NCBI GenBank assembly: GCA_020831775.1 | Contig: JAFIFZ010000079.1 | Location: forward strand, 248,001-312,000 | Direction of reading: 5' to 3' | DNA length: 64,000 nucleotides | Source of the DNA: Phycisphaerales bacterium | GTDB taxonomy: Bacteria > Planctomycetota > Phycisphaerae > Phycisphaerales > UBA1924 | Shown: positions 38,522 to 39,956 of the stretch, piece after piece | Layout: every line of letters begins with the position of its first letter | Numbering within the stretch: the first letter of the stretch is position 1 | Notes under the pieces: model-generated | What the model saw: the letters and a program-made list of their open reading frames with translations, nothing else | What the model was told of the DNA's origin: nothing | Database searches by the model: none | Translations under genes and position numbers: made by a program

Positions 38522-38947
38522 TCAACGCCGGCGACGCAAGGCGAGCAGCCCGACCCCGGCTGTCGCGAGCCCGGCGCCCGTAGGCAGCGGGATGGCGATC
38601 ACCGTCGTGCCGGGCGTGTCGTCGATATTGAAGTAGCTGTCGACGGGCTGCGTCGAGACATTCGATCCGAACAGCGTCGCGAACGGGTTCGAGCCGAACA
38701 CCGGCTCGGTGGGACGCAGGCTCGGCAGGCTTGTTGGCGGATCCTTCACCGGCGAGAGGCCGGAGAGATCGAGATCCTGCTCTTGATCGTTCGCGTATTC
38801 GTAGTTCGCGGGTGCGATGAGCTCCGACGCGATATCGATGTCGGATTCCAGCTCGATCCCGCCGAAGATCGGCGTCACCGGCGAGGCCATCGCCGATGTC
38901 GCCGCGCCGAGAATCACAACAAGCCCGATCTTCTCTTTCGTCATCAT
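38522..38947 (-). CDS. Exported protein with IPLP...RRRR C-terminal sorting tag (1)
   Basis: This 141-residue protein has a signal peptide (about 1-21, ending AMA-SP), an acidic Pro/Asp-rich middle with no predicted fold, and a C-terminal tag (residues 119-141): IPLP, a hydrophobic helix GAGLATAGVGLLAL and a final RRRR. The tripartite layout of short motif, membrane helix and basic end is that of PEP-CTERM/exosortase substrates, with IPLP replacing PEP. GGAGGAG lies 6 bases before the ATG. The nearby unrelated protein at 39294-39956 has the same tag, so the tag rather than the body is conserved. Confidence 0.72.
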   Translation of the reverse strand: MMTKEKIGLVVILGAATSAMASPVTPIFGGIELESDIDIASELIAPANYEYANDQEQDLDLSGLSPVKDPPTSLPSLRPTEPVFGSNPFATLFGSNVSTQPVDSYFNIDDTPGTTVIAIPLPTGAGLATAGVGLLALRRRR

Positions 38948-39179
38948 GCACGCTCCTCCCCGCGCGTCTGTGCGCAGGCGGCGGAGGCGCAGTAGCGCTG
39001 CCCGCCGTGCTCGAATCTACTCCGAACGCTCGACCATGCAAGGCAAGCAGAACAACGGCGCTGAAAACTCTTGTTTCAGGACTTCGCGATGCCGGTTATT
39101 GGATGCGCTGCGCAACCACTCGGACCGAGAACCGAAACCGATGCGGCGTGGGCCTGAAAGCAGTGCGCCAAAAGAAGTG

Positions 39180-39205
39180 ACGCCGGACCCTTTCGGATCC
39201 GGCGC
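39180..39205 (-). terminator. Possible terminator for the second tagged protein
   Basis: A 10-bp stem with one G-T pair and a TTTC/GAAA loop (39181-39190 with 39195-39204), followed on the minus strand by TTCTTTT, lies about 90 bases after the stop of the gene at 39294. The rest of the 346-bp gap 38948-39293 shows nothing I can name. Confidence 0.45.
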
Positions 39206-39293
39206 CCTTCCCGCTCCTCTCGCCTCTCCGACGCCGTCGTGGCGGCGCCCTCCTCGTGTCCATCCCGCCGCTGCAAGAGCGACGGTTGTTCGT

Positions 39294-39956
39294 TCAGCGC
39301 CGGCGCCGCGACGCGATCATCAAGAGTCCCGCGAACGCCATCGCCGCGGAACCCGGGAGCGGGATGGCGACGATGGAATCGCTCGGTGTTCCGGGGAACC
39401 GATCCCCCATCGAGTCGGCCACCAGTTGCGACCCGATCAGCAGGTCGAACAGCTCTGCGAGTTCATCGAACTCGCAGACGAACCAGCCGCTGAGGTGATT
39501 GGTCCCGAAGCCGGACTCGTAGACGGGCCGGAAGCGTCCGTGCGCCGCGTAGATCGCGTCGCCGAAGACACCGAACCCGCCGAGCATGTTCGGATTCACC
39601 GTTCGCCCGAACCGCTGGCGGAGCGGCCCGCCCCGCTCGGCGCTCCAGTGCTCATGGAAGTCCGGTCGGAAGCTGTAGAACGGGTTGGCGGGATCGAACC
39701 CGCCTAGACCCGAACCGCTCGCTCTGCTGTGCAGCCGCTCGGGGGAGAGGCTGGGCGTGCGGATCGCGGTCACGCGGACATCGCTCATCTCGGCGATCAG
39801 ACGCCGCTCGATGGCGGGGTCGGCCGAAGACGAACCGGGCGAGGCGAGGCTGCCCACGCCTTCGATCAGCACCGGGATCGGGGCCGCGAATGCGGGAGCG
39901 AGCAACGCGATTGAAAGGGGAACGGACAGGCAGGCGGAGCGATAGGAAGAGGCCAT
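39294..39956 (-). CDS. Exported protein with IPLP...RRRR C-terminal sorting tag (2)
   Basis: The protein has 220 residues with a signal peptide (about 1-25, ending AFA-AP), a body with aromatic and Gly-rich segments (GFDPANPFYSFRPDFHEHW, GGFGVFGDAIYAAHGRF) and the C-terminal tag IPLP + GSAAMAFAGLLMIAS + RRRR (198-220). It shares no body similarity with the tagged protein at 38522-38947. The ATG at 39956 is preferred over an upstream TTG. Role unknown; surface display or release after cleavage by an exosortase-like enzyme is inferred from the tag. No exosortase gene is in the window. Confidence 0.7.
   Translation of the reverse strand: MASSYRSACLSVPLSIALLAPAFAAPIPVLIEGVGSLASPGSSSADPAIERRLIAEMSDVRVTAIRTPSLSPERLHSRASGSGLGGFDPANPFYSFRPDFHEHWSAERGGPLRQRFGRTVNPNMLGGFGVFGDAIYAAHGRFRPVYESGFGTNHLSGWFVCEFDELAELFDLLIGSQLVADSMGDRFPGTPSDSIVAIPLPGSAAMAFAGLLMIASRRRR

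Follow-up and report, generated by a model that had tools for sequence, protein, structure and literature searches.

Genome comparison suggests that IPLP-type C-terminal tags belong to a second exosortase system in a family of Phycisphaerales

Introduction

In the PEP-CTERM/exosortase system (TIGR02595, PF07589, TIGR02602; Haft et al. 2006, PMC1569441) the tag combines a P-x-P motif, a hydrophobic helix and a basic C-terminus and sits on many unrelated cargo proteins, and the exosortase is associated with genes for exopolysaccharide and with a TPR protein; the system analysed here resembles it in each of these respects. NCBIfam also names systems in which another signature goes with an exosortase of its own. 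One precedent, with an altered signature and an enzyme devoted to it, is VPDSG-CTERM with XrtC (TIGR03778, TIGR04151); VPLPA-CTERM with XrtD (TIGR03370, TIGR04152) likewise joins a P-L-P signature to its own exosortase.

A search of open-licence papers by title and start of abstract returned nothing on exosortase/tag pairs in Phycisphaerales, which does not establish absence from print. In PMC12078418 the words 'exosortase' and 'Phycisphaer' both occur, the sole passage being a reference entry, and PMC12288469 contains both words as well.

Here we analyse a window of 64,000 nucleotides (contig 81, 248001-312000) from a Phycisphaerales genome bin of 3.55 Mb (84 contigs, 95% complete), in which two neighbouring genes end in the same IPLP tag. 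We consider it about 85% probable that their products are cargo of a second exosortase system, that of XrtI, which would run in parallel to a system formed by XrtII and VPAP tags.

Results

Two adjacent proteins with one tag

ORF 1 (38522..38947, minus strand) would encode an exported protein of 141 aa, and ORF 2 (39294..39956, minus strand) one of 220 aa counted from its ATG. The tail of ORF 1 is IPLPTGAGLATAGVGLLALRRRR (residues 119-141; 38525..38593, minus strand) and that of ORF 2 is IPLPGSAAMAFAGLLMIASRRRR (residues 198-220; 39297..39365, minus strand), both reading IPLP, 15 mostly hydrophobic residues and a C-terminal RRRR. A sequence-only reading of this DNA had described IPLP, a hydrophobic stretch of 14-15 residues and RRRR at the ends of two proteins with differing bodies; this is confirmed, and the spacer from the second proline to the first arginine is 15 residues in both. 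Putative signal peptides, placed by eye only from the translations, cover about 21 residues of ORF 1 (38885..38947, minus strand; site between TSAMA and SP) and about 24 residues of ORF 2 (39885..39956, minus strand; site between APAFA and AP).

A leave-out profile, which drew on 12 further IPLP tags in the genome and excluded the window's two, was run over the 947 window frames of at least 30 aa and placed ORF 1 (E=4.2e-11) and ORF 2 (E=7.5e-9) ahead of a third-ranked frame at 0.28. With their last 32 residues removed, the two bodies were compared by BLASTP (E 1e-3, over 40 residues) with each other and with 45 further tagged proteins, and gave no match. In G001 and G002, two genomes of the same genus, both genes are conserved side by side and carry their tags, and the ortholog of ORF 1 has the same neighbour there. 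A plasmid search with ORF 1 gave no match.

Two tag classes and two exosortases in one genome

A profile built from 14 IPLP tags found 17 tags in the window's genome at E≤7e-10, followed by a drop in score from 41 to 27 bits, and we take the count as at least 17. An eighteenth has a decayed end, RRVRSDS, and scores 2.9e-5. A count made with Pfam PF07589 was set aside, because it recovered only 6 of the 17, together with the decayed eighteenth. The same genome has a second class, VPAP-14-RRRR, of the PEP-CTERM kind, which gave 24 matches at 1e-6 and is at least as common as IPLP; we put its size at 22 tags or more. Two of these VPAP tags exceed the TIGR02595 cut-off. Among the stretches read from this genome the PLP spacer is 15 residues in 11 and 16 in 6 of the 17 tags, and the PAP spacer is 14 residues in 20 of 22 and 15 in two. 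In these stretches IPLP and VPAP form two discrete classes with no continuum between them.

Two short genes of the array on the XrtI side, L033:12695-13183 (contig 81, about 220.7 kb) and L033:14981-15460 (same contig, about 223.0 kb), end in decaying tags that read GARRVRSDS and VVPLSKGGLLAIVEPGLIGAHRV, and seem to be losing them. On contigs 66 and 68 (L021 and L026), similar-looking frames of 341 aa have a VPAPS tag with residues past the arginine run (RRRRIAS and RRRRFHHD).

Several features that mark the PEP-CTERM/exosortase class are found here: the window tags have a P-x-P signature, a hydrophobic helix and a basic end, one tag is carried by several unrelated proteins of the genome (17 tags), and two exosortase genes, XrtI and XrtII, score above the PF09721 cut-off. 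Both the further tags and the exosortases to which the sequence-only reading had pointed as a check on itself are thus present. XrtI lies on contig 81 at 232136-233008, some 15 kb before the window's left edge; XrtII is on contig 22. XrtI passes TIGR02602 (131.7 of 105.55 bits), which XrtII narrowly misses at 104, and both pass TIGR04178 (XrtI with 54.9 of 23 bits). The two enzymes align over only 106 residues, at 33% identity, and neither reaches the cut-off for named exosortases such as XrtA, B, C, D, V and W. The nearest named records of XrtII are in two Phycisphaerales MAGs (96-97% identity), and a search of PDB sequences with XrtI returned one chance-level match, to a photosystem subunit (E 0.036).

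It is conceivable that XrtI does other work, that IPLP is a drifted PEP-CTERM tag and that XrtII handles both classes, an improbable reading in our judgement. The layout and the RRRR that IPLP and VPAP have in common would fit such drift; two discrete classes with differing spacer lengths in one genome argue against it.

PLP tags are largely confined to genomes that have XrtI

XrtII was found in all 61 family genomes first examined, every IPLP-tagged one included, as would be expected if it handled both classes, and VPAP tags were found in 61 of 61. XrtI is present in 29 of these genomes and in 73 of 163 in a wider set spanning 74 genera. We called [IV]PLP tags with a profile, A3, of 30 rows (12 from the window's genome and 18 from relatives), which leaves out four relatives' tags that are not P-L-P: L082 (IPEP), L086 (VPTP), L088 (IPAP) and L089 (IPTP). 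At E≤1e-8, a cut chosen after the profile results, the 61-genome result among them, had been inspected, tags were present in 18 of 29 genomes with XrtI and 1 of 32 without it (Fisher 5e-7). Across all 163 family genomes the counts were 32/73 and 1/90 (1.3e-12), and in the 102 genomes not used before, separated from the 61 by genome number, 14/44 and 0/58 (1.9e-6). The near absence of PLP tags from the 90 genomes that lack XrtI argues against XrtII as the one enzyme for both classes. At a looser 1e-5, A3 matched 26 of 29 genomes with XrtI and 16 of 32 without; the matches in the latter are weak except in G042, and those that were read (G021, G038, G045, G050) are IPTP- or VPVP-like.

The association also appears within genus g3, where G168 has XrtI and PLP tags and G004 has neither. 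Two genomes carry tags and lack XrtI, G042 (PLP; 69% complete) and G022 (VPLPP; 82% complete), which incompleteness may or may not explain. Kinship bears on these counts, as 6 of the 14 newly found PLP-positive genomes belong to one genus, g24, and related genomes are not fully independent evidence. On a tree of XrtII, poorly resolved and drawn without G058 and G060, the XrtI and PLP traits are scattered (17 and 14 changes). A pair test that used only starred, well-supported branches (8 of 56 inner branches) had 3 pairs and no power, and for this reason we added an all-branch pair test and a simulation. Using all branches, the 59 genomes gave 17 independent pairs, about 10 of them concordant and 0 discordant, and none of 8594 simulated trait sets was as extreme as the observed one.

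At the cut-offs used, 13 of the 73 genomes with XrtI have neither a PLP nor a VPLPP tag. Five of these (G041, G056, G057, G113, G160) have other P-x-P tags beside XrtI, and the specificity of XrtI may therefore exceed one motif. Of 40 genomes from other families, 26 contain a gene resembling XrtI (E≤1e-20) and only one has an A3 match at 1e-8, which reads IPEP; we therefore limit the claimed XrtI/PLP pairing to this family. A strong PLP tag in G006 (C11:148333-148401; E=3.4e-11) ends an open frame of only 25 aa, which may reflect a frameshift in the gene or an error in sequencing.

Tags cluster beside XrtI

In 14 of 32 genomes XrtI has a PLP tag no more than 15 kb away, against 1.05 expected (p about 2e-13). 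The corresponding figure for XrtII is 0 of 19, uninformative alone because 0.70 would be expected. In the window's own genome, IPLP-tagged proteins, four of which are homologous, form an array that begins 10 kb downstream of XrtI. IPLP tags do occur on the contig of XrtII, three at 26-28 kb in the window's genome (G000) and two at 23 kb in G012.

Our first scan of protein tails needed judgement by eye and overlooked G060 and G188, and we recounted with one rule. Applied to both sides, in windows of mostly 18 kb and in sets of genomes that differ between the two enzymes, this rule found P-x-P tags in 15 of the 20 windows that lie downstream of XrtI, with two or more in 7 and 41 tags in all, and in 3 of the 20 that lie downstream of XrtII, none with two (3 tags); p=3e-4 for any tag and 0.008 for two or more. 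In 10-kb windows on either side it found P-x-P tags in 8 of 40 around XrtI and 1 of 20 around XrtII. Tags that gather near XrtI far more than near XrtII speak against XrtII serving both classes. At 17 of 41 XrtI loci, some of them on short contigs, no tag was found in the stretches read.

The arrays on the XrtI side contain several unrelated body families. In G044 (L236; contig 2, 87000-105000) about ten tagged genes follow XrtI, mostly of IPTPL/VPTP type and with at least three body families, and this run is an unusually large cargo array.

Tags vary with XrtI and meet a prediction

The tags beside XrtI vary by lineage and include IPLP[TSG], VPLPQ, VPLPP, VPTPQ, LPLPQ and IPTPL. When all tags that a single rule detects are used, tag distance correlates with XrtI distance (r=0.53 in 24 genomes, p=1e-4). 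The correlation persists once XrtII distance is removed (r=0.59, p=2e-4, 13 genomes), and tag distance against XrtII distance gives r=-0.09 (p=0.73). An earlier test with hand-picked tags from 21 genomes, which dropped VPAP-type and some other tags (G000, G023, G025, G041, G044, G057, G108, G113) and omitted G196, gave 0.61 for XrtI, 0.51 with XrtII removed and -0.07 for XrtII. Such co-divergence can be inflated without selection, because adjacent tag and enzyme genes may be inherited together. Tags that vary with XrtI and not with XrtII nevertheless count against a single enzyme for both classes.

From XrtI neighbourhoods in six seed genomes we made a second tag profile, VPLPP, and wrote down before the search that VPLPP tags should be confined to genomes with XrtI, chiefly those with an XrtI at 42-48% identity. 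They were found in 31 of 163 genomes, namely 30 of 73 with XrtI and 1 of 90 without, the one being G022, contrary to the prediction. Leaving out the six seed genomes the counts are 24 of 67 and 1 of 90, with 12 of the 24 in genus g59. In a tree of 41 of the XrtI found, with tips labelled from matches to the PLP and VPLPP profiles, 11 of the 13 VPLPP genomes present share a branch (100% SH-aLRT) with a single IPLP genome, G046. Outside this branch lie two weak VPLPP matches, G043 (labelled IPLP) and G192 (labelled other). Jointly the two profiles match 60 of 73 genomes with XrtI and 2 of 90 without (Fisher 5e-29, a statistic that ignores kinship).

Separate cassettes and conserved residues

In 41 XrtI windows, the own genome's included, the enzyme is accompanied by its own EpsI/DUF3485 protein (41), a chain-length kinase (38), a sugar transferase of PF02397 type (35) and a TPR protein (23). 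In 21 XrtII windows we found a different EpsI (21), a TPR protein (21), a kinase (19) and a PF00953-type glycosyltransferase (18). These counts are lower bounds, as several windows end at contig ends, and the Pfam classes are those of the own genome's proteins. Between XrtI and XrtII windows no cross-cassette match was found at E 1e-8 for EpsI, the TPR protein or the sugar transferase; the kinases match weakly, and the XrtII-side epimerase occurs in 5 of 41 XrtI windows. XrtI and XrtII lie in two distinct cassettes, both conserved and each equipped with an EpsI and a sugar transferase of its own. The difference between the transferases suggests two glycan routes, one of PF02397 and one of PF00953 type.

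Cys185, Arg230 and His250 (XrtI numbering) are among the columns conserved at 100% in the aligned 41 XrtI and 59 XrtII, and we take them to be the exosortase catalytic residues. Thirteen alignment columns separate XrtI from XrtII. In a tree with four reference exosortases all 41 XrtI group together, 30 of the 59 XrtII make up a second clade, and the references lie outside both. That these residues are kept in 41 of 41 XrtI speaks against the tail being a plain membrane anchor, a hydrophobic stretch with positive charges that undergoes no processing. Composition alone could hold a protein in the membrane in this way; an anchor of this sort needs neither two classes of signature and spacer nor co-distribution with one enzyme, and we think it very unlikely.

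Most PLP tags fall below the family models

Both window proteins score below every NCBIfam and Pfam cut-off. PF07589 gave ORF 2 10.1 of 20.7 bits and ORF 1 no match, and TIGR02595 reported neither. Among NCBIfam models, 7 or 8 of 10 PLP tags or proteins, the window's two included, stay under all sorting-signal cut-offs. Of the eight beyond the window's two, L074, a relative's PLP tag, passes TIGR02595 by 0.1 bit (16.1 of 16), L070 and L074 pass the LPXTG model, and the others pass none. One of four VPLPP tags scanned passes the IPTL-CTERM model. Standard annotation can thus miss cargo with such tags.

That the tag belongs to a different system of C-terminal sorting, for instance MYXO-CTERM/myxosortase or GlyGly-CTERM/rhombosortase, is scarcely credible: MYXO-CTERM (TIGR03901) is the NCBIfam model of lowest E for both window proteins, yet its 15.6 and 13.7 bits lie under the cut-off of 20 and the window tags lack the cysteine that PMC11980579 calls invariant in MYXO-CTERM.

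Discussion

The sequence-only reading saw in these tails a PEP-CTERM layout with a changed signature, and this holds up: P-x-P, helix and basic end are present at scores below the PEP-CTERM cut-offs. It further proposed an exosortase variant of matching specificity. Co-occurrence with XrtI, physical linkage, co-divergence and the VPLPP prediction all support this, and they make XrtI the likely partner of the tag.

If the two window proteins are XrtI cargo, they would be exported from the cytoplasm through a Sec-type signal peptide and retained in the inner membrane through their C-terminal helix, RRRR lying on the inner side. By the exosortase/PEP-CTERM model (PMC1569441, PMC3237569), XrtI would then recognise the IPLP signature, remove the helix and pass the protein to the cell surface. 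There it would probably be joined to a glycan made by the products of the XrtI cassette (EpsI, chain-length kinase, PF02397 sugar transferase and TPR protein). XrtII, with its own EpsI, TPR protein, kinase and PF00953 transferase, would serve the VPAP tags. Recognition, cleavage, exclusive pairing and the glycan anchor are points that we infer, and XrtII could also act on IPLP tags.

A more ambitious reading, to which we give slightly less than even odds, is that the two systems are orthogonal channels. One would consist of XrtII, a fixed VPAP tag and a PF00953 (WecA-like) glycan, the other of XrtI, a lineage-specific, co-evolving tag (IPLP, VPLPP, VPTPQ or IPTPL) and a PF02397-initiated glycan, and the last 25 residues of the cargo would choose the anchor. 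To our knowledge, how exosortases choose their substrates is little understood. If the channels are as described, the family would offer a natural series of enzyme/tag pairs for the study of exosortase specificity. Specificity could be probed by comparison and by tag swaps, because the window's genome has two classes and two enzymes, XrtI and its tag change together along a series of related genomes, and 13 columns separate the enzymes.

The tag had also been called new. This stands for the signature and for the pairing of XrtI with it; it does not stand for the kind, since NCBIfam already has VPLPA/XrtD and VPDSG/XrtC. The XrtI system falls outside XrtD/VPLPA-CTERM on three counts: XrtI scores 120 of 400 bits on the XrtD model (TIGR04152), it has a separate EpsI gene in place of a fused EpsI domain, and no tag scanned reaches the VPLPA-CTERM cut-off (TIGR03370). 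Against the annotated XrtD of a Roseobacter plasmid, XrtI shows about 26% identity across 56% of its length. Two EpsI-like (DUF3485) proteins, L034:3441-4136 and L036:9651-10559, give weak alignments to XrtD (TIGR04152) in its C-terminal half, and XrtD therefore looks like a fusion of two genes that are separate here. From VPDSG-CTERM/XrtC the system differs in its signature and in the 54.9 of 300 bits that XrtI scores on the XrtC model. The MYXO-CTERM model is not reached by either window tag. Compared with PEP-CTERM/exosortase itself, the window's IPLP tags score below the cut-offs, their spacer is longer than that of the VPAP class in this genome, and they accompany a second exosortase, parallel to an ordinary system in the same cell.
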